Assembly: GCA_947174665.1 (NCBI GenBank)
Contig: CAMWJV010000013.1
Span: forward strand, 1 to 42,467
Direction: 5' to 3'
Origin: an uncultured Lachnospiraceae bacterium
Lineage (GTDB): Bacteria; Bacillota; Clostridia; Lachnospirales; Lachnospiraceae
Length of the DNA stretch: 42,467 nucleotides
Shown here: in pieces, positions 20,319 to 40,478 of the stretch
Layout: every line of letters begins with the position of its first letter
How positions within the stretch are numbered: position 1 is the stretch's first letter
Notes under the pieces: generated by a model
Seen by the model: the letters and a program-made list of their open reading frames with translations, nothing else
The model's database searches: none
Told to the model about the DNA's origin: nothing
Translations under genes and position numbers: made by a program

Positions 20319-21994
<1,676 letters not shown>

Positions 21995-22117: not shown

Positions 22118-22501
22118 TCAGAGAAACTCATATACGGCCAATGCCACCAGCGCTAAAACAAGGTATACTGCTCCGGCCAGAAGCAGCCCTGCGGGAGATT
22201 TCCGTTCCGCTGCCTTCCGCTCCCGGTACTGATGGATGTCCTCCTTCTCCTCCCTCCTTAGGGCCGGCAGCGCCAGTTCGACGGCCACGCGCAGGCCATA
22301 ACCTGCCACGTCAAAGGCGCCCCGGTTGGATACTGCCTTAATGGTGCCCAGTCCCAGGAGAATCACTGCGGCCACGAAAAAACCGTCACACACCGATCGG
22401 CTCCACCCATAGTCCCTACTGACGTTCAAGGCACACACGGCCGCAGCAAGAATCGCACCGATAGCAAGGCATGTCAGAAGCCCTCTTCTTTTACCGCTCA
22501 T
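22118..22501 (-). CDS. DUF3899-like small membrane protein, last gene of left opp operon
   Basis: 127 residues with two hydrophobic segments at the N-terminal side ([36 protein letters not shown]), the short conserved-looking [13 protein letters not shown] stretch, a charged cytoplasmic segment ([16 protein letters not shown]), and a C-terminal helix. It overlaps the OppF stop by 4 nt (ATGA). A paralog of the same layout ends the right operon, which argues for a real link to this transporter type. Function unknown. Confidence 0.75.
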
Positions 22502-23652: not shown

Positions 23653-25798
23653 TTTCGGCCTCCCTTCTCTGGTTCATCCTGGCGATGCGGTCAATGACAG
23701 CCTTGGGCGGATCCACCTTGGGCGCATCCGGGTGCAGCAGCCAGGTAGCTGCATAGTGGGTGTCGCTGATCCGGAACATGGGCGGCTGCCGCTCAAAGTC
23801 AATCTGCATGGCATACTGGTTCCTGGCGGCAAAGGCATCCCCCTTTGGCGGATAGATCATGTTGGGCGGTGTGCCGGGAATGGCTGTCAGCTTCTCATTG
23901 GTATCCAGATCAGGCATGGAGGAAAGCAGCGCCCAGGTATAAGGGTGGGCGGCATGATAGAAAATGTCCTCGCTGGTGCCGTACTCCACGATTTTCCCGG
24001 CGTACATAACGGCCACGCGGTCCGCCATGTTGGCAACCACGCCCAGGTCATGGGTAATGAAAATCACGGACAGATGGCGCTCCACTTTAAGTCTGTTGAT
24101 GAGTTCCAGAATCTGGGACTGGATGGTCACATCCAGAGCCGTAGTGGGTTCATCACAGATAAGGATGTCCGGATTTGCTGCCAGGGCGATGGCAATGACG
24201 ATACGCTGGCGCATACCTCCGGAAAACTCAAAGGGATATTGCCGGAAGCGCTTGTGGGGCTCTGAGATACCCACCTCCTCCATCAGCCTGATAGCCCGGT
24301 GCCTGGCAATCCTGGGAGTCACCTTGTCAACAATGCCGGAGGAATTCTGCATCAGGTAATCGATGGCAGCAATGGTTTCAGTGTGGTAATCCCGGCTGTC
24401 AGCGGTGTTCAGAACATTCTGATAGTGCGCCGTAAGCCGATCAATAATGTGTGACAGGTTTGTCTTAATCAGCTCCAGATCGGTAACGGCAGCCTCCGCC
24501 ACTTCCCAATCGGGCTTTCCGCCCCTGGATACAATGGCATCATATTTACGCCTCTCCCGTTCGTGCCTGCGGAGGATTCCAACATTAGCTTTTACGCCGT
24601 GAAAATACTTGTCCAGCTCACTCCTCATGCTGGGTGAAAAGGTGTAGACAAGGCTGTCCTTGCTGATAGCAAGGGGATCAATGGTTCCTTTGACCGTTTC
24701 GCCCAGCTTCTTCCAGGTATCCACGCACTTATTTTTATCCAGCTGCTCTGCAGCATAAACCGACCGTGCGGACTCCAGCTCCTGGACTGCCGTGCGTATA
24801 CGGGCATAGCACTGGTTCGCAGAATAGATCAGGGCCCTCTGGGCATCGGAGACAAAGTCTGTCATAAAATCCTTTTCCAGATAATCCAGCAAAAAATCGT
24901 TCAGCTTTTCCAGCGGCATATCCGGCAGCGGTTTATCAGAGAATGTCAGATAATAGCCCATACGGAAGAAATTCGGCTTTGGCTTTTCCGCGCCCTCTGT
25001 CATAATTTCCCGCAAACGGTAAAGATTCTCAAGCACCGCCTGATAATCTTTTTTCTGAAAGTTCCCTTCCAGAGCAGAAGCGTTCTGCAGAACCTCAGCT
25101 TTATACTTATCCGGGTCTACCACATATTTGTTAAGGGACTCACGGCTGCGGCGGGCAATATCTTTAATGCGGTCCGCCGCACCTTTTGCCACGGTATTCT
25201 TTTCCAGTTCAAAGGCAATGATCCCGATATCGTCCAGCGCCTCTGTCGCTCCCTCATGGGAAGTGTTGTATGCAGATTCCAGTTCAGTATGCTTCCTTTC
25301 GAATTGCTGGAATTTCCTGCAGCTGACAGCAGCACGTGCTCGTTCCGTTTCATTCGAGGCGCTGGCAGCCATCATGTCTTCCAGATTCTTTAGATATGTG
25401 CGGAAGGAGCGCTTGCTTTCCCGCTGGCGGATTTTGCCCTTGAGAAGCATGGCTTCCGTAAGCTGACGGCCGATGCGTACGATGGGGTTCAAGGAGGACA
25501 TGGGATCCTGGAAAATCATAGCGATCCTGTCACCGCGGATCTTATGAAAATCCTCCTCTGATATTTTCAGCAGGTCCTGACCGTCATAAATGATTTCACC
25601 GGACTCCACAATGGAGTTGCCCGCCAAAATGCCCAGAATAGCCTTGCTGGTGACGGATTTGCCTGATCCCGACTCACCCACAATGGCCAGGGTTTCACCC
25701 TTGGCAAGGTCGAAATCAATTCCGCGGACCGCCTGCACCTTGCCATTGCCGGTGCGGAAGGAGATGCGTAAATCTTGTACATGCAATTTGTTTTCCAT
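23645..25798 (-). CDS. oppD: Oligopeptide ABC transporter ATPase OppD-like with ~370-residue insertion (left operon)
   Basis: 717 residues, about twice the usual OppD length. Walker A GESGSGKS at 41-48, Q-loop [12 protein letters not shown] (Gln 97), then an inserted region to about 490, then signature [15 protein letters not shown] at 525, Walker [13 protein letters not shown] (Asp 549, Glu 550), H-loop FITHDLG (His 583), and the peptide-transporter C-terminus ([15 protein letters not shown]). In ordinary OppD the Q-loop and signature are ~55-60 residues apart; here ~430. The insert is charged, mostly helical-looking, and falls in the helical subdomain that contacts the permeases. The start ATG shares one base with the oppC stop (TAATG). 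All catalytic motifs are intact, so it should be active. Confidence 0.9.
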
Positions 25799-27321
25799 TA
25801 GTCGTCCACCCCCCTTGTCGTTGGATTGAATGCGTCGCGAAGACCGTTGCCGAAGAGGTTAAAGCAGATCATCAAAAGCCCCAAAAAGATACTTGGATAA
25901 AGGATAGCGTGGGGCGCAGTGGTAACAACTGCATTGCCCTGACTTAGCAAGGTGCCGATGGTAGTACCGGCAAAAGCGCTCAGATTCACTATACCTAAGT
26001 AGGTCATGGAGGTTTCGGAACTGATAACACCGGGGATCACCAGAGCACAACTGGTAATGATGGTGCCGATGGCGTTAGGAAAAATATGCTTGAACATCAG
26101 CCGCCCGTCGCTGGCTCCCAGGGTGCGCGCCGCCAGGACAAACTCCTGGCTTTTGAAGCGATAGAACTGCTTTCTTGTCAGGGCGGACATGCCGATCCAC
26201 CCTGTCATCACAAAGGCAAACAGGAATGAGGGCACAATACCTACCTTTTGGGCAAGATGCAGTTGGAACAAGGTGGTGACCACCACGAAGGGCACGCCGG
26301 AAAGGATATCCGCAATACGGTCCAGCAGCATATCCACCCAACCGCCGTAATAACCCTGCAGGGCTCCATAAATCGCCCCAATGGTTAGATTGATGGCGCT
26401 GACCAGAATGGCGAAAATGATGGAGAATCTGGCTCCAACGCCGATCCCGCAGAAAATATCCTGACCCAAGGCATTTGTTCCCATGAGATAAGCGGGTTCC
26501 ATGCCGTTCAGGTATTGATAATAGTTATAATACAGCACACGGCATTGAACGGAACCGGATCTGCCGTAGGAGTAAATGTAGTCACCGGGATCGCCGGGAA
26601 TACGCAAAGAGCTATATTCCAGCCCTGCCTTATCTACGCTGGTGGAATAAACCGGAATGAAATCACCGTTGTCGTCTAAAACTGCGTTTCCCTTGGAGTC
26701 TACCTGGTACCAAATGTTGGGGTTATCACTGATATTGCCGATGTCCTTGGGCTCCACATAGGGATAGAGTACCTGGATGCCGGTTTCATTCTGCCAGTCC
26801 TGAATCCGCTGAAATTCATCATAGGAAAAGGTCTTATAAATCATCCCCTTCATATAATATGCATTGACCTCGATATCATAGGTAGTTCGGGTTATCGTCT
26901 GACCTTTGTGGATCATCTCAGTGTCATGGGTGCCCAGAACACGGATCACTGGCTCCAGGCCGGTCTCAACACCGATGGCCTTCCACGCAAGCATGGAATT
27001 GTCATTTTGACTGTCCAGGGTTCTGGCGCCATCCAAGATGCCGAGGTGCATATCGGAAACAGCGCGGACATAAGGCGGAAAGTTGATATAAATGCTGTCC
27101 TGATCCCGAATGTCATAAGGAGAGAGCATCGGTGCAACAATGGCGTACAGAATCAGCAGAGCCAAAATCCATGCGGCAATCACAGAAGACTTATTTTTGC
27201 CAAAGCGCAGCATGGCGTCCACAAAGAAACTGCGGGCTTTGGTCTGCAGTTCCCTGTCATGAAGCTTTTCATTTTCCTGGACGAAAGCGAACTTTTCAAC
27301 AGGAATCTTTTCATAGTCCAT
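25798..27321 (-). CDS. oppC: Oligopeptide ABC transporter permease OppC-like with large extracytoplasmic insertion (left operon)
   Basis: 507 residues compared with ~300 for standard OppC/DppC. The N-terminal cytoplasmic tail and first membrane helix (VIAAWILALLILYAIVAPML, ~50-70) are followed by ~200 extra residues facing outside (for example EFQRIQDWQNETGIQVLYPY). The usual five-helix permease core then starts at GTNALGQDIFCGIGVGARFS. The EAA-type loop is RTLGASDGRLMFKHIFPNAI. The C-terminus GNGLRDAFNPTTRG is typical. GGAGG lies upstream of the ATG; 15 nt separate it from oppB. The added domain may help capture or gate peptides with the binding protein; that is inference. Confidence 0.9.
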   Translation of the reverse strand: MDYEKIPVEKFAFVQENEKLHDRELQTKARSFFVDAMLRFGKNKSSVIAAWILALLILYAIVAPMLSPYDIRDQDSIYINFPPYVRAVSDMHLGILDGARTLDSQNDNSMLAWKAIGVETGLEPVIRVLGTHDTEMIHKGQTITRTTYDIEVNAYYMKGMIYKTFSYDEFQRIQDWQNETGIQVLYPYVEPKDIGNISDNPNIWYQVDSKGNAVLDDNGDFIPVYSTSVDKAGLEYSSLRIPGDPGDYIYSYGRSGSVQCRVLYYNYYQYLNGMEPAYLMGTNALGQDIFCGIGVGARFSIIFAILVSAINLTIGAIYGALQGYYGGWVDMLLDRIADILSGVPFVVVTTLFQLHLAQKVGIVPSFLFAFVMTGWIGMSALTRKQFYRFKSQEFVLAARTLGASDGRLMFKHIFPNAIGTIITSCALVIPGVISSETSMTYLGIVNLSAFAGTTIGTLLSQGNAVVTTAPHAILYPSIFLGLLMICFNLFGNGLRDAFNPTTRGVDD

Positions 27322-27336
27322 AAATTTCCCTCCTCC

Positions 27337-28290
27337 CTATTTTTTAGAACCCATACGAATCCGTGGATCGATGAATCCATAGCTGATGTCCACCACCAGA
27401 CTTGCCGCCAGGCCGATGGCCGTATAAAAACAGGTGGACATTATAAACACGTTATAATCCTGTGACCGGATCGCATTGAGCGTGAGACCGCCCACACCGG
27501 GGATTGCAAAAATATTTTCAATGATGAGGGAACCGCCAAGGATCCCGATAAACTCGCCGAAGATACCGGGAACGATGACTACAAAGCAGTTCCTTAAAGC
27601 ATGGCGCACTGTGGCCTGGGCTTTGGTCAGACCCTTGGTTCTGGCCAACAACATAAATTCGCTGGTCAGCACCTCCGTCAGCTCCGCACGGGTGGTGCGG
27701 CAAAATCCGGCGATGACGCCGAAACTAAGGGACAGGATTGCCGGAACCATACTTTTGAACATCTCCATGGAGAAATAGTCCGATCCACCTTTCATGATCA
27801 GGGGGAACAGACGAAGCCGGAAGCAAAAAATATACTGAACAAGAAAAGCATAGACGAAACTGGGGACAGAAATAACCACCATAGTCAGAGTGGAAATGAG
27901 GTAATCCACCCAAGTGTTTTTCTTCAACGCGGCCCAGATACCCAAAGCGATGCCGACAGGAATGGTCCACAAAATAGAGTATAGATTCACAATCATCGTA
28001 GCCGGCAGCTTTTCCAAAAATATGGTCAGGACGGACCGTCCTGTATAAAGCTGTTCGCTCAGCCCCCAGTCAAACTTGGTGAAAATGCCCCTGAGAAAAA
28101 TTCCGAATTGTACCAGATAGGGCTTATTATACCCTAAAGCCTCGCGGCGCATCTGGATGACTTCCGTATGAATATCGTCCGGAGGTAGGGCAGGAAGCGG
28201 CAGCATACGAATCAGGACGAAGCACATGAACGTGATGACAAAAAACACTATGATCATGTACAAAAGTCTCTGTAGGGTGTATTTGAACAT
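27337..28290 (-). CDS. oppB: Oligopeptide ABC transporter permease OppB-like (left operon)
   Basis: 317 residues, normal length. N-terminal helix LLYMIIVFFVITFMCFVLIR, a periplasmic segment with RREALGYNKPYLVQFG, KLPATMIVNLYSILWTIPVG, EAA loop RTKGLTKAQATVRHALRNCF, and C-terminal VVDISYGFIDPRIRMGSKK. About two-thirds identical by eye to the right-operon copy. The gap to the binding-protein gene contains a stable hairpin, a common way to give excess binding protein over permease. No change in key permease features is visible. Confidence 0.93.
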   Translation of the reverse strand: MFKYTLQRLLYMIIVFFVITFMCFVLIRMLPLPALPPDDIHTEVIQMRREALGYNKPYLVQFGIFLRGIFTKFDWGLSEQLYTGRSVLTIFLEKLPATMIVNLYSILWTIPVGIALGIWAALKKNTWVDYLISTLTMVVISVPSFVYAFLVQYIFCFRLRLFPLIMKGGSDYFSMEMFKSMVPAILSLSFGVIAGFCRTTRAELTEVLTSEFMLLARTKGLTKAQATVRHALRNCFVVIVPGIFGEFIGILGGSLIIENIFAIPGVGGLTLNAIRSQDYNVFIMSTCFYTAIGLAASLVVDISYGFIDPRIRMGSKK

Positions 28291-28438: not shown

Positions 28439-31093
28439 TTAGTACTGAAGCTGACCGTGAGCTGCAATCTGATCCTCAACATACTTTTCCCACTCAGCAT
28501 CACTATAGTTATACCGTCTCGGCCCATAGCTCTGGAACAGCGGGTTGTAATCATCCAGGACATTAAACAGCTTCTGGGAGAGCAAGCTCTTGGCACCGAA
28601 GTTACACATAGGCAGGATGTCATAGCGGGACATCATTCTGCCCTCCAGGGCAGCCAGAATGGTCATACGGACATCGGGCTCCACATCGGTACTGCCGAAA
28701 GAGTAGTCTTTGCCATTCACAGTCACCATGCTCCCGTTCATGGCCCGATACCAGTCATAAACGCTCATCGTGATCTCTTCTCCCTTGACGGTCAGAGTGA
28801 TCATGTCAGTGGTAGGATCGTACCAGTTAGCGGTCAGGTTCTGGTTGGGATCACAATACAAAGACATAGCGCTGAAGGGATCGTAAATGGAGCCGCCCAC
28901 ACCGGCGATCATCATGTCTGCAGAGCCGTTACGATAAGCGTCGATCCAACCGCTGTCTCCCAGAGGTGCGGATTCCACCACATTGAGTTTGCCCTCAAAG
29001 GGAGTACCGACCACAGCTTCGCTGATCCATTTGTTTAAGTAATTGATCCGTCGGGTAACATAATCCGCAGGTGCTGAGGATGCGTAGATCATGGTAATGG
29101 TCTGGTCACAGATACCATCGCCATCAGCATCAGTGATGTAGCCCAGGGAAAGGGACTCGTCAAAAGCAGCCTTGTAAAGCTCTTTGGCGGCATCTAAGTC
29201 GTAACCGGTAATAGAGTCAACGGCAGCATCCAGATCCCCGCCATACTGGCTGACATTTACAGAATAAAAATCGCAGAGCGCCTGCTTGGCCTGATCAGTA
29301 TCACGGTAGAAAAGGCCGTCTTCCACATCATAGATGTACTGGTCGCCCAGAATACCATATCCGGGGGCGTAAGCGGGATGACATTCGTCACAGAAAGCCT
29401 GTCTGTCGAATGAAACGGCCAGAGCCTTATGGAAGCTTACAAGTCCGATGGTCTGAGTGTCCTGAGTAGTAGTGTCAAAATCAGCAGCTGCCTCCCGGGC
29501 TTCCAGACCGTTCATATTACCGGTGACCCAAAGACCTGCAGCCGTCTCGGAAGGATAGGACCAGACGTAATCGGAATGGCCATATTGCTCGTAGTCACTC
29601 TCTTCCAAACCGAAGGTTGTGATCTGCCCGGCAAGGAACATCTGGCGTCTGGTGGCAATCTCCGGTACATACTGCATGTCAATATTGGTCGTCATGTTAC
29701 CGCGATAGACATTGCCGTCGTTAGGGTCCTTGTAGACGTGATACAGATCCTCGGTCCAGCCGAACCATTTATCATTCTTGGCAAAGGTAATCTGCTTGTC
29801 GGTCTGATAACCGGTCATGGAGTAAGCTCCATAAGAAGGAGATGTCTCCTTGTTGGTCATGTATGTGCTGTACCATGCACCGGACTCATCCTGCTTCAGA
29901 CACGATTCATATACATCCGGCTCCACCAGAACCAGTGAGTCCTTAATGGCATAGGAATAGAGATAGAAACCGTCAAAGCCTCCCTTAAAGACTTGAACCA
30001 GGGTGTATTCGTCCTTTGCATAAAAGCCAACTGTGTCCTCAAAGCTGATACCGTCAGGCATTGTCTCCGCAATAACGAAGTAGGCAGGAACTGACAGACC
30101 ATCGGTCTCGTTCCAATTGGGATTTGTGGTAGTAACATCGGTGACCATGGCCAGAGTGTCATCATTCAAAGGAGCCAGGCCGTTGTCATCCATCAGAGCC
30201 ACCAGCTCTTCCCACCGATCCATTCCGAAGTATGCGTCACCATAGGCATCCACATAGTCCTTCAAGGTATTGCCTCCGGTCTGCGCAATAGCAAAATCAA
30301 CTGCTACATAGACAGGATTACCCTCAAAGGTATAGGTACCGTCTTCGCCCTTGACAAAAGACTCCAGGGGATTGCCAACGTTTCCATTGTCAATATAGTT
30401 AATCTGACCTTGCTTGAAGTACTCCTCAGCGCCGACAATACCGTAAGCACCGTCATAGACATCAGTAGCCCTGTAATTCTGAAGCCTCTGATCCAACAGA
30501 TACTTCATGGACTGGACATAAGTATCGGCGGTAATGTGATAGCCGGTGTCAAAGAACAGATCCTCGCGCAAAGGAATCTCCCATGCATAGCCCTCCGTAG
30601 CACTTGCGGGAATCCAGTCAGGGTGGGCAGCTTTGACCTCAGCGGTCACATCGGTGGGATAATCCGCAGCCATGCCGGGCAGGAAAATATAGGATTTCCA
30701 ATCCTCGGCGCCCTCCTTCGGATGAAGCTCGTCATTATAGGACAGATTATAAAATCCGTCCACCAGATAGTCGAAAATGTTCCCTGAAGCAGAATCCTCA
30801 TAGTCGTGCATATTCCAGTTACCCGGAATAGAGGTAAGTGCAACGCTCTGGGTATAGGTAGCGTTAGGGTCGAACTCAGTAATGGTGTAGCCGGGACCGC
30901 CTTCATTGTCGGACGAACCAGATTCTCCTGTCTCATTCTGATTGGCAGATTCTCCTGACTCACTTTGATCGGCAGATTCTTTCGTTTCACTTTGTTTCGT
31001 TTCCCCGGAAGAATCGCCATTGTTGTCGCCGCAGGCCGCCATGCTAAAGACCATGGCAGAGGCCAACAACAAGCTTAATGCTTTCTTTTTCAT
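28439..31093 (-). CDS. oppA: Peptide-binding lipoprotein, SBP family 5 (left operon)
   Basis: 884-residue OppA-like lipoprotein, longer than the usual 520-600. Signal peptide with lipobox MAAC (Cys ~21) and a Ser/Gln/Glu-rich linker (ETKQSETKESADQSESGES). Family-5 landmarks include WEIPLREDLFFDTGYHITAD and TYVQSMKYLLDQRLQNYRAT near residue 190. A Ca-loop-like DADGDGICD lies near residues 655-663. GAGGAG is 8 nt before the ATG. It is roughly half identical by eye to the right-operon paralog, so the two probably bind different peptide sets. In the orientation present here its promoter lacks a -35 box, so I predict the operon is off or weak. Confidence 0.9.
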   Translation of the reverse strand: MKKKALSLLLASAMVFSMAACGDNNGDSSGETKQSETKESADQSESGESANQNETGESGSSDNEGGPGYTITEFDPNATYTQSVALTSIPGNWNMHDYEDSASGNIFDYLVDGFYNLSYNDELHPKEGAEDWKSYIFLPGMAADYPTDVTAEVKAAHPDWIPASATEGYAWEIPLREDLFFDTGYHITADTYVQSMKYLLDQRLQNYRATDVYDGAYGIVGAEEYFKQGQINYIDNGNVGNPLESFVKGEDGTYTFEGNPVYVAVDFAIAQTGGNTLKDYVDAYGDAYFGMDRWEELVALMDDNGLAPLNDDTLAMVTDVTTTNPNWNETDGLSVPAYFVIAETMPDGISFEDTVGFYAKDEYTLVQVFKGGFDGFYLYSYAIKDSLVLVEPDVYESCLKQDESGAWYSTYMTNKETSPSYGAYSMTGYQTDKQITFAKNDKWFGWTEDLYHVYKDPNDGNVYRGNMTTNIDMQYVPEIATRRQMFLAGQITTFGLEESDYEQYGHSDYVWSYPSETAAGLWVTGNMNGLEAREAAADFDTTTQDTQTIGLVSFHKALAVSFDRQAFCDECHPAYAPGYGILGDQYIYDVEDGLFYRDTDQAKQALCDFYSVNVSQYGGDLDAAVDSITGYDLDAAKELYKAAFDESLSLGYITDADGDGICDQTITMIYASSAPADYVTRRINYLNKWISEAVVGTPFEGKLNVVESAPLGDSGWIDAYRNGSADMMIAGVGGSIYDPFSAMSLYCDPNQNLTANWYDPTTDMITLTVKGEEITMSVYDWYRAMNGSMVTVNGKDYSFGSTDVEPDVRMTILAALEGRMMSRYDILPMCNFGAKSLLSQKLFNVLDDYNPLFQSYGPRRYNYSDAEWEKYVEDQIAAHGQLQY

Positions 31094-31112
31094 AATTTTT
31101 CTCCTCTCGATA

Positions 31113-31255
31113 GATTTGCCATATACTTTGACGCTTTATTGCTTTAAACTTTCAAGTATAACAAAAAAGGGTTGAAATACCCTCCACTCCCTTGTGAATA
31201 CCTGTATACAGTTAGCGCCGTATGTAATTTGCATAGTTTAGTATAAATTACACTT
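31113..31255 (-). repeat. Left 143-bp inverted repeat (leader of left opp operon)
   Basis: The reverse complement matches 32884-33026 with no gaps and 9 mismatches in 143, nearly all transitions. Only two mismatches fall in the inner ~98 bp. It covers the left operon from just upstream of its -10 box to about 20 nt before the oppA start codon. Confidence 0.97.
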
Positions 31256-31268
31256 TGTACTGGACTTT
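31240..31268 (-). promoter_or_regulatory. Incomplete promoter of left opp operon: -10 without -35
   Basis: On the minus strand TATACT occupies 31245-31240. With a 17-nt spacer the -35 position (31268-31263) reads AAAGTC, which matches TTGACA at no position. Spacers of 16 or 18 give AAGTCC and GAAAGT, also poor. There is no extended -10 TG. Predicted inactive in this orientation. Confidence 0.7.
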
Positions 31269-31289
31269 CCAAAGACGAGTTGCTATAAT
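31261..31289 (+). promoter_or_regulatory. Promoter of the recombinase gene
   Basis: TGGACT (31261-31266), 17-nt spacer, TATAAT (31284-31289). The predicted start near 31296 lies in a small dyad GCAAAC/GTTTGC (31295-31310) that could be an operator. The promoter is inside the unique segment, so it would travel with the gene on inversion. Confidence 0.7.
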
Positions 31290-31339
31290 CCCTCCGCAAA
31301 CAGATGTTTGCCATACAAAAGACAAGGAGGAATTTGAAC

Positions 31340-32608
31340 ATGGCATCGATCAGAAGAGTCACACACAAAAACGGCAGGGTGGTGTACCGCATTGTCATCT
31401 GTCTGGGCTACAACGAAAACGGGGGAAAACTGGTTAAAAATCTCACCTGCGCGGTAAATCAGTCCGCCACTCCGAAGCAGCAGGAGAAGGAGGCGCTGAA
31501 GTACGCATTAAATATGGAAGATAAACTAAAGTACGGATATGAGACAAACTCCTGTCAGGAATCCTTTGAAGCGTTCGCGGAGCGGTGGCTGGAAAGCGTG
31601 AAAGACAGCCTGGCCCGGGGAACCTACATCGGATATGAAAATCTGCTGAGAACAGGAATCCTGCCATATTTTAAAGGGTATAAACTGGCCTGCGTCCGGA
31701 CGGCGGATATAGAAGCGTTTTACAGAACGCTTGTTGTTCGTTACGCTCCGGGGACCATCAAGCGTTATGCAAATGTGATGAACTGTATTTTCAAGACGGC
31801 CAGGCGCTGGAATCTCATTGAAGACAATCCCTGCCAATATGCCAGAAGGCCCCGGAAAAGGCCGGCAAATGACAGGCTGCGGTACTTTACACCGGATCAG
31901 TCCCTGATGTTCCTGAAATCCCTGAACCTGACTTATACGGAAGCCGGTGACGGTCCGGGGCATTCTGTAAGGACGTACACAGTATCCACACAGTATAAGG
32001 TGTTTTATATGCTCTCCCTGTTCTGCGGTTCCCGAAAGGGAGAGACTCTTGCTCTGCAATGGTCGGACATTGATTTTATGGCACAGGAGATTTCCATCAC
32101 AAAATCAATCGGACGGACAGAGAATGGTTTTGACTACAAGGAGCCGAAAAGCAGTGCTTCCATGCGCAGAATTCCGTTTCCGGACTGTGTGACGGATATC
32201 CTGAAGCGCTATCGGCTGGAATATGACGCTTTAAAGGACAGCATGGGCAGTGACTGGGCGGGGAAAGATAATCTGTTCATCCGCACGGACGGAAGGCTCA
32301 TGGGGCAAACCACTGCCTATCAGCATTTTATCAGGCATTTGGAGCGGTATAATCAATGGATAAGGACATATCCGGAGAGGGCCCGTGCAGAAGGGCTGGA
32401 GGAACTGCCTGCTATACCGCTTCACGGACTGAGGCATTCCTGTGCCACTCTGCTGAATTATCTGGAAGTCAATATTATTGACATTTCAAAATATCTGGGA
32501 CATGCCAGCTGCTCTACTACAATGAATATCTACGCGCACAGCTTTGAGGCTCAAAGAAAAGCCGCACAGGAAAAAATAAATGCTTTTCTGCGTCGGAATA
32601 CCCACTGA
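31340..32608 (+). CDS. Tyrosine recombinase (integrase family), proposed invertase of the switch
   Basis: 422 residues from ATG 31340, with AAGGAGG 8 nt upstream; an in-frame ATG at 31304 is rejected. The N-terminus (RRVTHKNGRVVYRIVICLGY) resembles the arm-binding domain of Tn916/phage-type integrases. A SAM-like core-binding domain spans ~75-170. Catalytic residues are complete: Arg232 (FCGSRKGETLAL), a Lys in the beta-hairpin (EPKSSASMRRIPF), His362 and Arg365 (LHGLRHSCATLLN), His388 (YLGHASCST) and the nucleophile Tyr398 (MNIYAHSF). It therefore should be active. No excisionase, relaxase or phage gene is nearby. It is the only gene between the inverted repeats, hence the proposed role of flipping its own segment. 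An alternative is a degenerate remnant of an integrative element. Confidence 0.93.
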   Translation: MASIRRVTHKNGRVVYRIVICLGYNENGGKLVKNLTCAVNQSATPKQQEKEALKYALNMEDKLKYGYETNSCQESFEAFAERWLESVKDSLARGTYIGYENLLRTGILPYFKGYKLACVRTADIEAFYRTLVVRYAPGTIKRYANVMNCIFKTARRWNLIEDNPCQYARRPRKRPANDRLRYFTPDQSLMFLKSLNLTYTEAGDGPGHSVRTYTVSTQYKVFYMLSLFCGSRKGETLALQWSDIDFMAQEISITKSIGRTENGFDYKEPKSSASMRRIPFPDCVTDILKRYRLEYDALKDSMGSDWAGKDNLFIRTDGRLMGQTTAYQHFIRHLERYNQWIRTYPERARAEGLEELPAIPLHGLRHSCATLLNYLEVNIIDISKYLGHASCSTTMNIYAHSFEAQRKAAQEKINAFLRRNTH

Positions 32609-32870
32609 ACGCTGCCTCAGCGTCATACTGTTTCCATACTGAAACTGTAGTATGGGGATAACTGTTTGTTGTCAAAAATGCCGTATTTTAACAAGTATTG
32701 ATGCTATTCACCCTAAATCGGTATGAAATGGGCGGTTATTATGAAATAACTTTGTGAATTTCATGGATATACGGTTTACAGAATATCCCGGGATTGTTAA
32801 ATAGTAACAAATATCGGGAAATCCCTTACATTCCCAGCATTTGTCAGCTTAGTGCATATGTAAAAAAATC
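32609..32870 (+). other. Recombinase 3' region with hairpin and dyad
   Basis: No gene seen. CGCTG/CAGCG (32610-32622) directly follows the stop. A larger hairpin CATACT+GTTTC (32624-32634) pairs with GAAAC and AGTATG (32641-32645, 32649-32654), plausibly the recombinase terminator although without a long T-run. Near the right end a dyad TCCCG...CGGGA (32786-32819) encloses TTGTTA/TAACAA and may be an accessory or arm-type protein site. Confidence 0.5.
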
Positions 32871-32899
32871 TTGACAATTTCTTAAGTGTAATTTATACT
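32871..32899 (+). promoter_or_regulatory. Complete sigma-A promoter of right opp operon; -35 inside, -10 within the inverted repeat
   Basis: Consensus TTGACA (32871-32876), 17-nt spacer, TATACT (32894-32899). The inverted repeat begins at 32884, so the -35 lies in unique invertible DNA while the -10 is shared with the left repeat. Predicted strongly active for the right operon in this orientation. Confidence 0.88.
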
Positions 32900-33026
32900 A
32901 AACTATGCAAATTACATACGGCGTTAATTGTATACAGGTATTCACAAGGGAGTGGAGGGTATTTCAACCCTTTTTTGTTATATCTGGAAATTTAAAGCAA
33001 TAAAGCGTCAAAGTGTACAGCAAATC
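32884..33026 (+). repeat. Right 143-bp inverted repeat (leader of right opp operon)
   Basis: Partner of 31113-31255, 134 of 143 positions identical. It contains the -10 box, an 8-bp-armed dyad TGTAATTT (32887-32894) / AAATTACA (32909-32916) with a 14-nt centre that suits a tyrosine-recombinase core site, an 8-bp palindrome TGTATACA (32929-32936), and a T-run hairpin. It ends ~15 nt before the oppA start codon. Confidence 0.97.
32956..32976 (+). promoter_or_regulatory. Attenuator-like hairpin in the shared opp leader
   Basis: AGGGT (32956-32960) / ACCCT (32967-32971), 6-nt loop, then a T-run to 32976. AAGGG at 32946-32950 can compete for the same CCCTT. The identical structure exists in the left repeat. 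The stem is short, so termination would be weak or conditional. Confidence 0.4.
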
Positions 33027-33041
33027 AGAAGGAGGAGAATT

Positions 33042-35654
33042 ATGAAAGGAAAGAAATTTCTAGCCCTCGTAATGGCGGCGGCCATGACCATGTCGCTGGC
33101 ATCCTGCGGGGACAATTCCGGAGATGCGTCCGGAAACAGCGGAAACACCGAAAACGCCGGGGACAGCGGAAATACCGGCAACACGGAGTCGGAAAGCAGT
33201 TCCGAACCCGAATCCCAGTCAGGCGGAGAGACAAATGCAGACACCCGATACATATATAAGGATGCTGTGAACCTGCTTGCTTCTAACTGGAGTGTCCATA
33301 CATATCGGACAGCAGACGATGGTTATCCGGTAGACTATATTGCAAGCGGTTTTTATGATTTTGTTTACAATGACGAGTATCATCCGGTGGAAGGGATGGA
33401 TCCCTTTACGGGATATACGATTGTGCCTCTGATGGCGGCATCCGATCCCGTGGATGTGACCGCGAAGATAAAGGCGGAGCATCCCGAGTATGGTATCCCT
33501 GAGTCTGCCACTGCCGGATTTGCATATACCATCGACCTGAATCCCAATGCAGTATGGGAGGATGGCACTGTTATCAATGCGGACAGCTATGTGTATTCCA
33601 TGAAGCAGCTGCTGGATCCCAAGATGAAGAACTACAGAGCTACCGACTATTTTGATGGCGATTTTATCATTGCAGGTGCGAAAGCATATAATTACGCCGG
33701 ACGTGACGCTTTCTTTGAGGTTGCGGCAGCAGCGGAGTCCATAGACGACCTCACAGTAGGTGATGACGGCTTCTATACTCTTTCCGACGGCAGCGCTGTA
33801 TATGTGGCTCTGACTGACGGGCTGGAATGGCTGGGAGGAAATACCCTGGCAGACTATGTGAACGCTTACGGTGAAGCATATTTCGGCGTGGAGGACTTCA
33901 ATGCCCTGCAGGGAATGGCTGACGAGAACGGCCATGTACAGCTGAACGAAGAGACCCTTGCTCATATTGTGGGCGTGATCACCACTGTGGCAGATTGGGG
34001 CGAGACAGAGGCTGATGCTGTAAATTACCTGGTGTATGGAGTACCTTTCCCCGAGTGCGATTATGATTCCACAGTTGGATTGTTCAAATCCGGTGAGTAT
34101 CAGATTACTATCGTGCTTGAAAACTCCTTAAGCGGATTCAATCTGTATTACAATCTGGCAGGCCCTACCTGGCTGGTAAAGGAAGATATTTATGAGAGCT
34201 GCAAGAGATTTGACGGTGATGCATTTACCTCTTCTTACTGCACCAGCGTAGAGACCACCAGCAGCTATGGCCCTTATAAGATGACTGAGTTCCAGTCCGA
34301 CAAGGCAATGCACTTTGTGAGAAACGAGAACTGGGTAGGATATGCGGACGGACAGCATACTTATGTAGATCCCACAGACGGTGAGACCTATGATATGTAC
34401 ATGACCGACGAGATTGACACTCAGGTAGTGTCTGAGTCCTCCACTTCAAAGCTGATGTTCCTGAAGGGTGAGCTGATGGGCTACGGCTTGCAGGCTGAGG
34501 ATTTCGACACCTACAGAAACAGTGAGTATGCATACGCAACTCCCAGAACCACAACCTTCTTCTTTATCTTTAATGGCTATCTGGATGCTATTAAAGAGCG
34601 TGAAGCAAATGATGGCTTTGACCAGACTAAGAACGATCTGGAGACCATGACTTTGCAGTCCTTCCGCCGTGCAGTTGCGGTTACTTATGACAAGGAGCTG
34701 TTTGCAAGCACCATTTCTCCTGCCAGAAAGGGCGGCTATGGATTGATCGGCAGCGCGTATGTGTATGATCCCGACACAGGTGCCAAGTACCGTGATACGG
34801 ACCAGGCGAAGCAGGTTCTCTGTGATTTCTATTCTGTGAACACAGCTGAATACAGCAATCTGGATGAGGCGGTTGCTTCCATCACAGGTTATGACCCTGA
34901 GGCGGCAAAAGAACTGTATACACAGGCCTTCAATGAGGCTCTTGAGAAGGGCTTTATCACCGATAATGACGGCGACGGCATCAGCGATCAGAGCATCAGC
35001 ATTGAATATGCTATGGGAGATGACCCTAATGACTTTATGACAAAGACCATCAACTACCTGAACGAGAAGATGGCTGATGTTACCACAGGAACACCTTTCG
35101 AGGGCAAGATTCAGTTTGTGATGTCCGCTAACTACGGAAATGACTGGGACAAGAAACTGAAGGCCGGTATGTCTGACACTGTTCTGGCCGGCTGGCAGGG
35201 TTCTCTGCTGAATCCTTTCAGCATCATCCGTCTGTATACCAACGGCACTGACCAGCAGTATGACTACCAGTGGTTTGATGCCAGCAAGATCAGTCTTACC
35301 CTGGAGCTGGAGGGAGAGTCCATCACCATGAACCTGAGACAGTGGTCTGAGGCTCTGCTGGGATCTACGGTTAAAGTTGGAGAAAATGAATATAACTTCG
35401 GTGAGGCAGATGCGGATGTGGATACCAGACTGACCATTCTGGCAGCTCTGGAGGGCCAGATACTTCAGACCTATGACTATATCCCCATGCTGGAGGATGC
35501 AAGTATGGCTCTGCTGTCACAGCAGGTATTCTATGTGGTAGATGATTACAGCCCCATCATGGGCCGCGGCGGTATCGCTTACATGAAGTACAATTATAAC
35601 GAGAGCGAATGGGCGGCATATGTTGCGGAGCAGGGCGGCGAACTGAAGTACTAA
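33042..35654 (+). CDS. oppA: Peptide-binding lipoprotein, SBP family 5 (right operon)
   Basis: 870 residues from ATG 33042, which has AAGGAGGAG at 33029-33037; the longer frame from 32928 would run through the inverted repeat and is rejected. Lipobox LASC, then a Gly/Ser/Asn/Glu linker. Family-5 landmarks include FAYTIDLNPNAVWEDGTVIN and DSYVYSMKQLLDPKMKNYRA. A Ca-loop-like DNDGDGISD lies near residue 645, matching the left paralog. Roughly half identical to the left paralog by eye, with conserved framework but diverged in many surface stretches. It has a complete promoter in this orientation, so it is predicted to be the expressed copy. Confidence 0.92.
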   Translation: MKGKKFLALVMAAAMTMSLASCGDNSGDASGNSGNTENAGDSGNTGNTESESSSEPESQSGGETNADTRYIYKDAVNLLASNWSVHTYRTADDGYPVDYIASGFYDFVYNDEYHPVEGMDPFTGYTIVPLMAASDPVDVTAKIKAEHPEYGIPESATAGFAYTIDLNPNAVWEDGTVINADSYVYSMKQLLDPKMKNYRATDYFDGDFIIAGAKAYNYAGRDAFFEVAAAAESIDDLTVGDDGFYTLSDGSAVYVALTDGLEWLGGNTLADYVNAYGEAYFGVEDFNALQGMADENGHVQLNEETLAHIVGVITTVADWGETEADAVNYLVYGVPFPECDYDSTVGLFKSGEYQITIVLENSLSGFNLYYNLAGPTWLVKEDIYESCKRFDGDAFTSSYCTSVETTSSYGPYKMTEFQSDKAMHFVRNENWVGYADGQHTYVDPTDGETYDMYMTDEIDTQVVSESSTSKLMFLKGELMGYGLQAEDFDTYRNSEYAYATPRTTTFFFIFNGYLDAIKEREANDGFDQTKNDLETMTLQSFRRAVAVTYDKELFASTISPARKGGYGLIGSAYVYDPDTGAKYRDTDQAKQVLCDFYSVNTAEYSNLDEAVASITGYDPEAAKELYTQAFNEALEKGFITDNDGDGISDQSISIEYAMGDDPNDFMTKTINYLNEKMADVTTGTPFEGKIQFVMSANYGNDWDKKLKAGMSDTVLAGWQGSLLNPFSIIRLYTNGTDQQYDYQWFDASKISLTLELEGESITMNLRQWSEALLGSTVKVGENEYNFGEADADVDTRLTILAALEGQILQTYDYIPMLEDASMALLSQQVFYVVDDYSPIMGRGGIAYMKYNYNESEWAAYVAEQGGELKY

Positions 35655-35698
35655 TCTGTTCTGTCACAGTTAATTTAAAATATTAAGAACTAATAAAT

Positions 35699-35731
35699 AG
35701 GCATTTTAGGGGCGTATGCCCCTGAATGCCT
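35699..35731 (+). promoter_or_regulatory. Stable hairpin between right oppA and oppB
   Basis: AGGCATT (35699-35705) / AATGCCT (35725-35731) outer stem and AGGGGC/GCCCCT (35708-35713/35718-35723) inner stem with GTAT loop, no T-run. It has the same position as the hairpin in the left operon but unrelated sequence, and probably sets the binding-protein to permease ratio. Confidence 0.65.
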
Positions 35732-35801
35732 GTTGTTAATAAATGAGGCTTATCCTAATATTGAGTAAATGTCCGGCAGAGGCGGACAGAAGGGTATATT
35801 T

Positions 35802-36755
35802 ATGGGAAAATATGCGGTAAAGAGAATTTTATTGATGCTGATGACTTTGTTTATTATCACGTTTATGTGTTTTGTATTGATCAGAATGCTTCCTCTGGCG
35901 AATCTGCCTCTCGGAGACCCGCATTCTGACGTTATTCTGGCCCGCAGGGAGGCTGCCGGGTACAATAAACCTTATCTGGTTCAGTTTGGGATATTTCTGA
36001 AGAATATTTTTACCAAAGGGGACTGGGGCGTAAGCGATGTGCTTTACTTTGGGCAGGAAGTGTCCGCTGTCTTTGTATCGAAGCTTCCGGCTACTATCAT
36101 TGTTAACCTTTATTCTATTCTTCTGAGCATCCCTATCGGGATTATTCTTGGTATTTTGGCGGCGATCAAGAAAAACAGCTGGATAGACCACACGATTTCA
36201 ACCTTGACTATGGTATGCATATCCGTACCTTCTTTCGTGTATGCATTTGTAATACAATATTTTCTGTCATATAAACTGGGTCTGTTTCCTTTTCTGATGA
36301 AAGCCGGGACTGACTGGTTTTCCTGGAAAATGTTTGTCAGTATGCTTCCGGCGGTGCTCTCTCTGTCTATGGGCGTGATCGCGGGCTTTACCCGCACCAC
36401 CCGTGCAGAGCTGACCGAGGTCTTGACCAGCGAGTTTATGCTGCTGGCCAGGACGAAGGGTCTGACAAAGACGCAGGCCACCGTGCGCCATGCAATGAAA
36501 AACTGTATGGTGGTGGTATTACCTTCTATTTTTGGTGAGTTTGTCGGCATCATGTCGGGGTCACTGATTATCGAGAAAATCTTTTCTATTCCGGGAGTGG
36601 GGCAGTTGTATCTGAATTCTATCAACGGAAGGGATTACCCTATGTTTACTATGCTGGTGGTCTTTTATACCACAGTTGGACTGGCAGCCAGTATTGTGGT
36701 AGATATCAGTTACGGATTTATTGATCCCCGCATCAGAATGGGATCGAAAAAGTAA
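35802..36755 (+). CDS. oppB: Oligopeptide ABC transporter permease OppB-like (right operon)
   Basis: 317 residues from ATG 35802, which has AGAAGGG 7 nt upstream and gives the same length as the left paralog; ATG 35769 would add 11 residues. Landmarks: IITFMCFVLIRMLPLANLP, RREAAGYNKPYLVQFGIFL, KLPATIIVNLYSILLSIPIG, EAA loop RTKGLTKTQATVRHAMKNCM, and C-terminal DISYGFIDPRIRMGSKK identical to the left copy. It forms the translocation pore with the OppC-like partner, 11 nt downstream. Confidence 0.93.
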   Translation: MGKYAVKRILLMLMTLFIITFMCFVLIRMLPLANLPLGDPHSDVILARREAAGYNKPYLVQFGIFLKNIFTKGDWGVSDVLYFGQEVSAVFVSKLPATIIVNLYSILLSIPIGIILGILAAIKKNSWIDHTISTLTMVCISVPSFVYAFVIQYFLSYKLGLFPFLMKAGTDWFSWKMFVSMLPAVLSLSMGVIAGFTRTTRAELTEVLTSEFMLLARTKGLTKTQATVRHAMKNCMVVVLPSIFGEFVGIMSGSLIIEKIFSIPGVGQLYLNSINGRDYPMFTMLVVFYTTVGLAASIVVDISYGFIDPRIRMGSKK

Positions 36756-36766
36756 GGGGGCAGACT

Positions 36767-38305
36767 ATGGAGAAAAAAACACAGGATCTGGAACGTATTC
36801 CAAAAGAAAAATTTGAGTTTGCACAATTGGATGAGGCCATTCATGACAAAAAATTTGATACAAAGACCAGAGGCTTTTTTGCAGATGCCATGATTCGTTT
36901 CCGCAAAAATCAGTCTTCCGTGATAGCGGCCTATATCATAGCGCTGCTGGTGCTGTATGCTATTATTGTGCCAATCATTGCCCCGATCAAGATGGATAAC
37001 AAAGATAAGGTATTTATAAATACACCGCCTTTCATCAGAGCCATCGCCGAAAAGGGATGGGGGATTTTTGACGGTGCGGTAGTACATGAGAGTCAGAATG
37101 AAACTCAGATGAATTACTGGAGAGGCATCGGAATCGAGACCGGCTATGACCCTGTTGTAGAGATTCTCGGAACCTCTGAGACGGTTTCCAGATACAGAGG
37201 GAAAGATAAGATTTCATATTTTTACAAGATGTCCACCAACAGATATTATGATACCGGTGTGGTGTACAGGGTGTTTTCCTATAATGAGTTTCAGAATATC
37301 CAGGACTGGCAGAATGAGACAGGGATTCAGGTGATATATCCTTATGTGGAGCCTGAGTCTATCAACGGGATCAATGACAATCCCAATATCTGGTATGAAG
37401 TGGATTCCAAGGGAGCGGCCCAACTGGACAAGGACGGCAATTTTGTGCCTGTGTATTCCACCAATGCGGCAATTGAAGGCGCTCCATACAACAGCATCCG
37501 TATAGCCGGAGATGACGGCAGCTATATCTATAGTGTCCGTAAGTCCGGTTCCGTTCAGGCCAGGGTCTGCTATTATAATTACTATACCTATGTGAACGGA
37601 TATGAACCCATGTATATTCTGGGAACAAATTCCATGGGAGAGGACCTGTTCTGCGCAATCGGTGTAGGAGCCAGATTTTCACTTATCTTTGCAATTCTGG
37701 TGTCTGCGATCAATTTGACGATCGGTGCAATCTACGGTGCGATTCAGGGATATTACGGCGGGGCTGTCGACATGGTGCTGGACAGATTTGCGGATCTTTG
37801 TTCCGGCATTCCCATGATCGTTGTGACGGTGCTGTTCCAGCTTCATCTGGCAGCAAAAGTGGGAACCATAGGAGCTTTTCTGTTTGCCTTTGTCATGACA
37901 GGCTGGATCGGCATGAGTGCCTTGGTCAGAAAGCAGTTTTACCGTTTTAAGAGTCAGGAATTTGTGTATGCGGCACGGACACTGGGGGCGTCGGACAAGA
38001 GGCTGATGTTCAAGCATATATTCCCCAATGCCATAGGCACCATCATCACAAGCTGCGCCCTGGTCATTCCTTCAGTCATACTTTCCGAGACTACGATGAC
38101 ATATCTGGGCATTGTAAATATCAGTGATTTTGCGGGAAGCAGTATCGGTACATTGCTGTCAAAAGCACAGAGCGCCATGACTACATCACCCCATGCCATG
38201 CTGTATCCGTCCATCTATTTTGCTTTACTGCTGATCTGCTTTAACCTGTTCGGAAACGGCCTGAGAGATGCATTTAACCCTACAACGAGAGGAGTGGAGG
38301 ACTGA
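36767..38305 (+). CDS. oppC: Oligopeptide ABC transporter permease OppC-like with large extracytoplasmic insertion (right operon)
   Basis: 512 residues. Same plan as the left paralog: N-terminal tail KIPKEKF-like region, first helix (VIAAYIIALLVLYAIIVPII), ~200-residue external insert containing EFQNIQDWQNETGIQVIYPY, then the core from GTNSMGEDLFCAIGVGARFS, and EAA loop RTLGASDKRLMFKHIFPNAI. The insert is conserved between the two operons, including that IQDWQNETGIQV stretch, which argues for a selected function rather than drift. The stop is 1 nt before the oppD ATG. Confidence 0.9.
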   Translation: MEKKTQDLERIPKEKFEFAQLDEAIHDKKFDTKTRGFFADAMIRFRKNQSSVIAAYIIALLVLYAIIVPIIAPIKMDNKDKVFINTPPFIRAIAEKGWGIFDGAVVHESQNETQMNYWRGIGIETGYDPVVEILGTSETVSRYRGKDKISYFYKMSTNRYYDTGVVYRVFSYNEFQNIQDWQNETGIQVIYPYVEPESINGINDNPNIWYEVDSKGAAQLDKDGNFVPVYSTNAAIEGAPYNSIRIAGDDGSYIYSVRKSGSVQARVCYYNYYTYVNGYEPMYILGTNSMGEDLFCAIGVGARFSLIFAILVSAINLTIGAIYGAIQGYYGGAVDMVLDRFADLCSGIPMIVVTVLFQLHLAAKVGTIGAFLFAFVMTGWIGMSALVRKQFYRFKSQEFVYAARTLGASDKRLMFKHIFPNAIGTIITSCALVIPSVILSETTMTYLGIVNISDFAGSSIGTLLSKAQSAMTTSPHAMLYPSIYFALLLICFNLFGNGLRDAFNPTTRGVED

Positions 38306-38306
38306 G

Positions 38307-40478
38307 ATGGAGAAAAAATTATCGGTTAGAAATCTTACCATATCCTTCAGAACTGCCAATGGCCGGGTGCAGGCTGTGCGGGGAATCGATTTTGATCTTG
38401 CCAAGGGCGAGACGCTGTCCATTGTGGGTGAGTCCGGTTCCGGAAAATCCGTGACCAGCAAGGCAATCCTGGGGATTCTTGCCGGGAATGCCATTATTGA
38501 AGGCGGCGAGATCATTTATGACGGCAAGGACTTGCTGAAGCTGTCCGAGCAGGAATTCCATAAGATCCGCGGCGACAAGATTGCCATGATATTTCAGGAT
38601 CCTATGTCCAGCTTGAATCCTATTGTCAGAATCGGACGACAGCTGACAGAAGCCATGATCCTAAAGGGAAAAGAACGCCAGAGGGAGAGCCGGGCCTGTT
38701 TCAACGGGTATCTGAAAGACCTGAAAATAAATATGACTGCCGCGATCGCCGGAGACGATAAAGAAAAGGCAGCACAGCTTGCAAAAAAATGCGCTGATTT
38801 TGATAAGTTTGAGTACAAGCATCTGGAACTGGAGAAGGCTTACAGCATTGCCCATGAGGCGGCACAGGAGGCAGTGGATGATATTGCCGACCTGGTGTTT
38901 GAGATGGAGAAAAACGCGGCAAAGGATGCCCCTTACCGCATCAGGGAACTTGTGAAGCTTGCAAAGGCTTCCATTCAGGAATATGTAGTCAGGGAAGATG
39001 CTGAAAAGCTGCAGGCATTAATTGACGAACTTAAGCAGGATGCAGGCGCGGTTAAGAAGCCTGACTGCAAATATGATGCCATTATCGGCAGGCTGAACCG
39101 GGTAGATGAGATACTGAAGAAGGCTCTGGCCCTTGAAGAACCTAATTTCTTCTGTATGGGCTATTATCTGACCTTCAGCGGGAAAGAGCTTCCTGCCATG
39201 AACAGCATAGGGGAGTTAAATGAATTCCTGCGCAAGTATCTTGATGATAATTTCATGCTGGATTTTATCGCCGATGCCAAAAAGGGGATGATGTATGCGG
39301 CGGAGGGCTCCTGCCGCAGCAAGGAGGCCGCTGTCAAGGCATTGAAGGAGGCCCTGCCTGCATTCGAGAAAAAGGAATTGGATGCGGCTGAGTGCCGCAG
39401 TGTGCAGAAGGAGCTTTCTAAAAAGGTACTGGCTACGATCAACAAACTGGAGGTTGTCAAGGACAATCTCACCTATACATTTCCCGTCCGCCTGGAGAGT
39501 GAGATCAACCGCTACTTTTCTTCCATTACCAAGAACCGGGATGAGGAAAAGCGCTATGCGAAGGCAAAGGCAAAATATGACAGGCTGGCAGCTCGGGGAA
39601 AAACTCCGGAATGGAAGGTTGTAGAGGCTAAGATTACCGATCTGGATGAGGTTCGGGATGATATCTGTCACCAGATCACGCGCCAGATTGAGCATTTTGA
39701 AGCTGCCCTTTCCAGAGAAAAGGAACGCGATTTCGATACGGAGACCGTGGCGGGCATCGACTATCTGAAGGAAAACGCATCCGGTGTGGTCAACAAGGTA
39801 ACGAAGCAGATTGCAAAAGCAAAAGCAATTCGTCTGATGGAGGAGGTTGGCATTGCGGAGCCCAGAAAGCGCTACCGGCAGTATCCCTTTGAATTTTCCG
39901 GCGGCATGCGTCAGCGTATCGTGATCGCCATCGCCCTGGCGGCAGACCCTGACATCCTGATCTGCGACGAACCTACTACGGCGCTGGATGTGACTATCCA
40001 GGCACAGATACTGGAACTGATAAACAAATTGAAAGCCGAGAGGCACCTTTCCATTATCTTTATTACCCATGACCTCGGCGTGGTGGCCAACATGGCTGAC
40101 CGCATTGCGGTGATGTACGCGGGGAAAATCGTGGAGTACGGCACCTCGGAGGATCTGTTTTACCAGGCTGCCCACCCTTACACCTGGGCGCTGCTTTCCT
40201 CCATGCCGGACCTGGATACCGACGAAAAGCTGGAGGCCATACCCGGCACACCGCCCAATATGATATACCCGCCTGTGGGTGATGCGTTTGCGGCGCGAAA
40301 CAAATATGCGCTGAAAATAGACTTTGAACAGCAGCCTCCTATGTTCAGGATTTCCGACACACATTATGCTGCTACATGGCTGCTTCACCCGGACGCTCCA
40401 AAGGTAGACCCGCCTAAGATTGTAACGGACAGAATCGCCAGAATGAAAGCCAGAAGGGAGTACGAAGATGGAGAATAA
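38307..40478 (+). CDS. oppD: Oligopeptide ABC transporter ATPase OppD-like with ~370-residue insertion (right operon)
   Basis: 723 residues from ATG 38307, matching the paralog start (MEKKLSVRNLTISFRTANGR); an ATG at 38268 overlapping oppC is rejected. Walker [10 protein letters not shown]-loop [20 protein letters not shown], a ~370-residue charged helical insert, signature [15 protein letters not shown], Walker [13 protein letters not shown], and H-loop [14 protein letters not shown]. The insert is clearly homologous to that of the left copy (shared [11 protein letters not shown] and DNLTYTFPVRLESE-like segments) but more diverged than the catalytic core. It overlaps the next gene by 11 nt. 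Confidence 0.92.
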   Translation: MEKKLSVRNLTISFRTANGRVQAVRGIDFDLAKGETLSIVGESGSGKSVTSKAILGILAGNAIIEGGEIIYDGKDLLKLSEQEFHKIRGDKIAMIFQDPMSSLNPIVRIGRQLTEAMILKGKERQRESRACFNGYLKDLKINMTAAIAGDDKEKAAQLAKKCADFDKFEYKHLELEKAYSIAHEAAQEAVDDIADLVFEMEKNAAKDAPYRIRELVKLAKASIQEYVVREDAEKLQALIDELKQDAGAVKKPDCKYDAIIGRLNRVDEILKKALALEEPNFFCMGYYLTFSGKELPAMNSIGELNEFLRKYLDDNFMLDFIADAKKGMMYAAEGSCRSKEAAVKALKEALPAFEKKELDAAECRSVQKELSKKVLATINKLEVVKDNLTYTFPVRLESEINRYFSSITKNRDEEKRYAKAKAKYDRLAARGKTPEWKVVEAKITDLDEVRDDICHQITRQIEHFEAALSREKERDFDTETVAGIDYLKENASGVVNKVTKQIAKAKAIRLMEEVGIAEPRKRYRQYPFEFSGGMRQRIVIAIALAADPDILICDEPTTALDVTIQAQILELINKLKAERHLSIIFITHDLGVVANMADRIAVMYAGKIVEYGTSEDLFYQAAHPYTWALLSSMPDLDTDEKLEAIPGTPPNMIYPPVGDAFAARNKYALKIDFEQQPPMFRISDTHYAATWLLHPDAPKVDPPKIVTDRIARMKARREYEDGE

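Follow-up and report, generated by a model that had tools for sequence, protein, structure and literature searches.

Organization of the locus

The window is the whole stretch of DNA that was analysed, 42,467 nucleotides from an uncultured Lachnospiraceae bacterium, and its features are listed in Table 1. Two operons of five genes each are transcribed away from each other, the left one spanning 31093-22498 (- strand) and the right one 33042-41718 (+ strand). Both have the composition of an Opp ABC importer, i.e. an SBP_bac_5 protein, two permeases and two ATPases; the assignment was made by Pfam for the right operon, and by Pfam (binding protein) and similarity (remaining genes) for the left. 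The last left gene (22498-23652) is an OppF-like ATPase by NCBIfam, with a score below the family cut-off. From this gene content, the products are predicted to be opp-type importers of peptides.

The operons are separated by an inverted repeat with arms of 143 nt, 134/143 identical and spaced by 1,628 nt. It is the best inverted repeat in 31000-33200 (227 bits; the maximum over 100 dinucleotide shuffles was 38.3). The similarity ends at the arm boundaries (inner flanks 11/60, outer flanks 19/60, ungapped), and the left arm matches only the two arms in the source genome, which is 82.7% complete. The segment between the arms contains a tyrosine recombinase gene and no second gene. This is the layout of an inverton, with inverted repeats around an intergenic segment 5' of genes. 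The original prediction had described a lone recombinase gene between 143-bp inverted repeats, each repeat forming the leader of one of two back-to-back paralogous opp operons; the repeat alignment, the Pfam assignment, the gene layout and the similarity of the binding proteins agree with it on both points. The left and right binding proteins are only 42% identical, and the similarity between the leaders thus greatly exceeds that between the genes they serve.

Table 1. Features of the switch region and its surroundings in the window
Feature	Coordinates	Strand	Basis
Enolase (eno), landmark beside the switch	20666-21994	+	
Left operon, two permeases and two ATPases	27337-28290, 25798-27321, 23645-25798, 22498-23652	-	Similarity to right operon
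Left operon, SBP_bac_5 peptide-binding protein	28439-31093	-	Pfam
Left inverted-repeat arm, leader of left operon	31113-31255	-	Repeat alignment
Terminator-like hairpin with T run, left leader	31166-31185	-	Consensus scan only
Left-arm copy of leader motif, one mismatch	31196-31211	-	Leader alignment
Left core (TGTAATTT-14 nt-AAATTACA), predicted recombinase site	31223-31252	-	Sequence; crossover mapped to equivalent core in relatives
Left -10, TATACT, in left core	31240-31245	-	Sequence
Promoter-like site of recombinase, TGGACT-17-TATAAT, within segment	31261-31289	+	Promoter scan
Tyrosine recombinase, 422 aa from ATG at 31340	31340-32608	+	Pfam PF00589, PF14659, PF22022
-35, TTGACA, 17 nt 5' of TATACT, in unique segment	32871-32876	+	Promoter scan, arm comparison
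Right inverted-repeat arm, leader of right operon	32884-33026	+	Repeat alignment
Right core, sequence as left core	32887-32916	+	Sequence
Right -10, TATACT, in right core	32894-32899	+	Sequence, promoter scan
Conserved leader motif TTGTATACAGGTATTC	32928-32943	+	Leader alignment
Terminator-like hairpin with T run, right leader	32954-32973	+	Consensus scan only
Right operon, SBP_bac_5 peptide-binding protein	33042-35654	+	Pfam
Right operon, two BPD_transp_1 permeases and two ATPases	35769-36755, 36767-38305, 38268-40478, 40468-41718	+	Pfam, NCBIfam

Recombinase

Residues R232, K267, H362, R365, H388 and Y398, which we take to be the R-K-H-R-H-Y catalytic set of tyrosine recombinases, lie inside the PF00589 domain and are invariant among 12 aligned relatives, as expected from the earlier claim that all catalytic residues are present. 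The domain places the protein among the tyrosine recombinases and not in the serine recombinase fold of the Hin family. The region with the catalytic residues aligns with solved Int chains, e.g. 6emy; this chain and 6en0 are presumably integrases of the Tn1549/Tn916 type. Domain layout and class are the same, but those enzymes integrate and excise, whereas here the gene stands alone between inverted sites. In a recombinase tree of 35 rows, the 11 switch rows form one clade (100/100), the sisters of which are rows from Hespellia and UBA4845 (97/90); several terminal branches are long. The recombinase gene of genome G059 is separated from the ON core by approximately 1.6 kb of additional DNA (L035:10964-12584), so the segment can contain more than the recombinase.

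Promoter anatomy and leaders

The best promoter-like site of the region, TTGACA-17-TATACT (32871-32899), points toward the right operon and is split: its -10 lies within the repeat, while its -35 belongs to the unique segment and stops 7 nt short of the repeat. Both cores hold the identical -10, yet the left one has no matching -35 (best 2/6). The remaining minus-strand sites of the scan are two, scoring 9/12 each, inside the recombinase gene and at least about 0.8 kb from the left core; the consensus scan as a whole was near chance (6 sites against a shuffle mean of 3.5, sd 1.7). The repeat is thus predicted to carry the -10 and the leader and not the whole promoter, a refinement of the two-output switch reading. 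The promoter-like site of the recombinase itself is present in 7/12 loci, with near forms in 3/12; none was detected in G057 and G003 within 160 nt.

The leader motif reads TTGTATACA(A/G)GTATTC, and its GTATACA is invariant across 15 aligned leaders; it may be an operator or an extra recombinase site. Terminator-like hairpins stand between promoter and first gene, where attenuation is possible. The fold of the 15 leaders gave no convincing hairpin (energy -7.02; two-sided changes in 5/31 pairs), and an attenuator is therefore simply noted. A known RNA element as the identity of the leader was rejected, since an Rfam search of 30800-33300 returned no match up to E = 1.

Proposed switch

The segment from approximately 31240 to 32899 is likely an invertible half-promoter switch between the two peptide importers. 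The recombinase encoded inside the segment would cross over at the two identical cores, and the flip would carry the sole -35 from one importer operon to the other. With the segment oriented as in the window, the right operon would be ON and the left OFF, and one importer would be expressed at a time. The recombinase would be transcribed from its own promoter in both states, which would make the switch reversible and populations mixed.

Inversion between relatives

Inversion had been deduced from the inverted geometry, and a search of related genomes for the flipped form was proposed; such a form was found. Genome G055 and Acetatifactor muris DSM 23669 (G003) have the same two operons, of types O and P (see below), with the segment inverted. 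Over kilobases on either side the two genomes are collinear (84-89%); the inverted alignment is confined to the middle (83% over 1,882 columns). The outer junction halves remain with their own operons (107/108 and 104/108 identical), while the inner halves are swapped (168/200 and 148/199; unswapped, only 74/175 and 81/175). The exchange point falls within 22 nt, inside TAATTTATACTAAACTACGTTA. As a result of the inverted segment, the -35 points at operon O in G055, whereas in A. muris it points at operon P, a change of promoter side seen at the level of sequence. The pair shows an inversion between species and is not a measure of its rate. The recombinase gene of A. muris (L045:9471-10714) is split by a frameshift in the assembly, so the orientation of this strain may be frozen; where the recombinase is broken, as here and in the gene remnants of G008 and G012, the switch may be locked.

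An inversion of this kind could also arise by general homologous recombination in the repeats or through another recombinase, with the gene inside the segment as a passenger. Arms of 143 nt at 94% identity are long enough for homologous exchange, and G008 and G012 keep arm sequences with remnants of the gene only. The leaders of G055 and A. muris, however, share only the 22-nt core, which fits site-specific exchange, and the supposed passenger has kept an open frame and invariant catalytic positions in the 12 aligned relatives and stays beside the core. We regard this explanation as improbable, and site-specific inversion by the enclosed recombinase as the preferred one.

Junctions of both orientations were also found within the assembly of one isolate. 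Two orientations should give four junctions, and three of these are present in the draft assembly of isolate B63 (G002). On contig C8, the leader of operon type N is joined to the 3' flank of the recombinase (307 bp, up to the gene end); after 11 N the same leader follows again (388 bp, 100%), now connected with the 5' flank and the complete gene. The leader of type P is joined to the recombinase 3' flank (175 bp), and the contig with the gene ends at TAATTTATACTA, the exact point where leaders P and N diverge. Past the P junction, the sequence passes to the hflX-smpB-rnr side, which may reflect an error of gap closing. The duplicate is unlikely to stem from a third operon that begins identically, since the B63 genome holds, besides the N-type binding protein and an 83-residue duplicate, just one 31% partial match. 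The strains of the mouse culture collection, to which B63 appears to belong, are described in PMC8763404 as cultured to purity; the same paper gives PRJEB18589 as the accession of their reads. Being drawn from a draft assembly, these junctions are strong but not final evidence that both orientations occur in one isolate. G057 has two contigs with identical final 48 nt, made up of core and leader, which follow the ON flank on one contig and the OFF flank on the other; they were set aside as proof of two orientations because two identical leaders would look alike.

Divergent paralogous operons with a duplicated leader might also be static, the orientation being fixed and the left operon silent or served by an unseen promoter. 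Only one orientation is known in the window species. It is shared by the nearest relative, G072, so an inversion between these two was rejected. Against fixed orientation stand the inverted relatives, the B63 junctions of both orientations and operon types that are ON or OFF depending on the species; it is a slightly poorer candidate still than homologous recombination.

Distribution of the switch and position of the -35

Recombinase matches below 1e-100 were found in 14/138 genomes of the genus. Thirteen of these 14 contain the core, as do G008 and G012, which have gene fragments only. The exception, G132, was rejected as a switch: its recombinase matches at E 4.8e-133, yet there is neither a core nor a nearby opp match. 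Eight loci (G000, G072, G059, G060, G055, G003, G133 and G092) combine the gene and both arms with divergent operons, or binding-protein genes, on either side.

TTGACA at a spacer of 17 is present in 16/16 arms on the recombinase 3' side (15 loci; two of the 16 rows are one B63 flank), whereas 0/12 of the other arms reach a -35 of at least 5/6 at spacers 16-18. The other arm of G092 has TTGACA at a spacer of 15, and therefore may not be fully OFF. Among other TATACT sites in ten sources, taken as control, 3/109 reach 5/6 and 2 reach 6. Because the arms were gathered with the exact string TAATTTATACT, selection accounts in part for the -10 rule; the -35 played no role in this selection. The inverted relatives, the two-orientation junctions of B63 and this one-sided -35 support the earlier reading of the locus as a two-output switch that is real, conserved and probably active.

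The core is absent in 68/79 of the genome loci listed (52 searched up to 4 kb from the gene and 27 along the full locus) and in 17/18 loci of a family search (flanks of approximately 1.5 kb); both are sampled collections and do not prove absence elsewhere. The core-bearing loci in both recombinase collections are the switch loci, and a switch outside the genus is not supported by these samples.

Chromosomal setting and origin

Ten loci are anchored to eno and/or rnr-smpB (G000, G059, G003, G009, G057, G062, G133, G008, G060 and G002). The two anchors are on opposite sides of the switch in G059, G003 and G009; one side is visible in G000, G062, G133 and G008, while G057 extends over two contigs and B63 is scrambled. 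In G060 (L231, G060:C22:205001-221000), unlike the other anchored loci, smpB adjoins enolase on the same side of the switch, a local rearrangement. The contigs of G072, G055, G092 and G093 are short and, like the 18 kb examined of G012, gave no eno or rnr-smpB marker. The recombinase is directed away from eno in G000 and G059, whereas those of G060 and A. muris are directed toward eno; the recombinase of G133 and the remnant in G008 are directed toward the rnr side.

Strain D16-50 (G009) has the order eno, recombinase, ON core, operon M, operon L (convergent), OFF core and rnr, so its cores enclose approximately 18 kb with both operons. Eno is beside the 5' side of the recombinase also in G057 and G062. 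In such an inside-out layout, the logic of the switch would be equal and the moving part different.

The promoter-core string, with at most one mismatch, was matched in 62/138 genomes. Five genomes lacking the switch recombinase were picked by eye, namely four of the eight exact matches outside switch loci and G053 (one mismatch). In all five, an opp-type operon lies 3' of the promoter-core, the promoter is intact and there is no recombinase; the operon is beside eno in G014, G073, G053 and G105, and at a contig edge in G097. Because these integrase-less loci keep it, the ON promoter looks native to an eno-linked importer that the recombinase joined. The recombinase copies of Hespellia and Faecalicatena, the closest outside relatives that were checked, are directly 3' of a serine resolvase gene, for which reason descent from a mobile element is likely. 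That the locus is still an ordinary mobile element between two opp operons, with the repeats as attachment sites and moving instead of flipping, would suit these copies and the near-identical copies in distant genera, but is hardly credible, since the recombinase is the only gene of the segment, the core is absent from most sampled recombinase loci and the ten anchored loci lie by eno and/or rnr-smpB.

The operons fall into about ten types by similarity of the binding protein, of which type N is loose (43-54% between some members). Type R has three partners (G000, G072 and G059). Other pairs are Q-N (G060), N-P (G092 and B63), O-P (G055 and A. muris), M-L1 (G133 and G009) and P with another type (G008). 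Judged by the position of the -35, four types (P, O, Q and N) would be ON in a given species but OFF in a different one.

Comparison with known systems

Known cases of phase variation mostly concern surface coats, pili and signalling. The Hin system of Salmonella (fljBA) uses a serine recombinase, has the whole promoter in the segment and represses the second output in trans. It shares with the present locus an invertible segment that encodes its own recombinase and chooses between two outputs, but here the recombinase is of the tyrosine class, only the -35 would move and both outputs are in cis. In E. coli fimS there is one output, with the whole promoter inside the segment and the recombinases FimB and FimE encoded outside; promoter inversion and the tyrosine recombinase class are shared. 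At the sap locus of Campylobacter fetus, as proposed here, one promoter serves either of two divergent targets; these are surface-layer genes, however, and the segment is not known to contain a recombinase. The SusC/SusD inversions of Bacteroides concern outer-membrane importers of a Gram-negative organism in a shufflon-like arrangement; nutrient importers under inversion are the common element, although these are not ABC importers with a split promoter. Work on the B. fragilis invertase is listed in a review (PMC11868660).

RecV of Clostridioides difficile acts on sites elsewhere. It is a tyrosine recombinase with DNA inversions at cwpV and flagella (PMC5903667), and clostridial DNA inversion by this class is shared with the present locus; the outputs are surface or signalling genes. 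The fimbrial inverton of Providencia stuartii, with an 844-bp segment, 14-bp inverted repeats and an enclosed recombinase gene, is reported in the same source; it shares the enclosed recombinase but is fimbrial and, in the part available, is described with no second, importer-like output. The terms 'ABC transporter' and 'peptide' are absent from that part of PMC5903667, as are 'transporter' and 'peptide' from the available main text of a survey of gut invertons (PMC11892184), in which a Clostridia inverton group is linked to a tyrosine recombinase group. A survey of invertons may include a site of this type that it does not describe. No peptide-importer inverton was found in the literature searched, in line with the opinion that an alternation of complete peptide importers is not a standard example.

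It is reasonably likely that the locus represents a switch of new design, with a recombination site that also serves as the -10, flips that re-splice one -35 to the other of two complete importers, and two slots filled from a pool of about ten importer operons that species of the genus exchange; some species would have the inside-out form, with both importers (approximately 18 kb) as the flipping part. The split promoter is a compact either/or design. If the reading is true, a gut commensal makes a heritable and reversible choice of what it takes up, through one peptide importer or the other. Mechanism and origin can be tested directly in cultured commensals by means of the natural inverted pair, the loci that lack an integrase but keep an intact promoter, and those in which the recombinase is broken.

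Additional observations

A PD-(D/E)XK transposase-family ORF (19236-20318, - strand) is located immediately before the enolase gene of the window. A small DUF3899 gene is found 3' of the right operon (41784-42185), and a 34% match is also found 3' of the right operon of G133. In an uncultured Eubacterium MAG (L097:8400-11200), a distant recombinase (approximately 32% identity) lies between inverted repeats of 316 bp and 78% identity, which lead into the gene of a secreted-looking protein on the right and an apparent paralogue on the left; this locus is perhaps an independent switch. A repeat resembling that of L097 is also present in L139 (G514).
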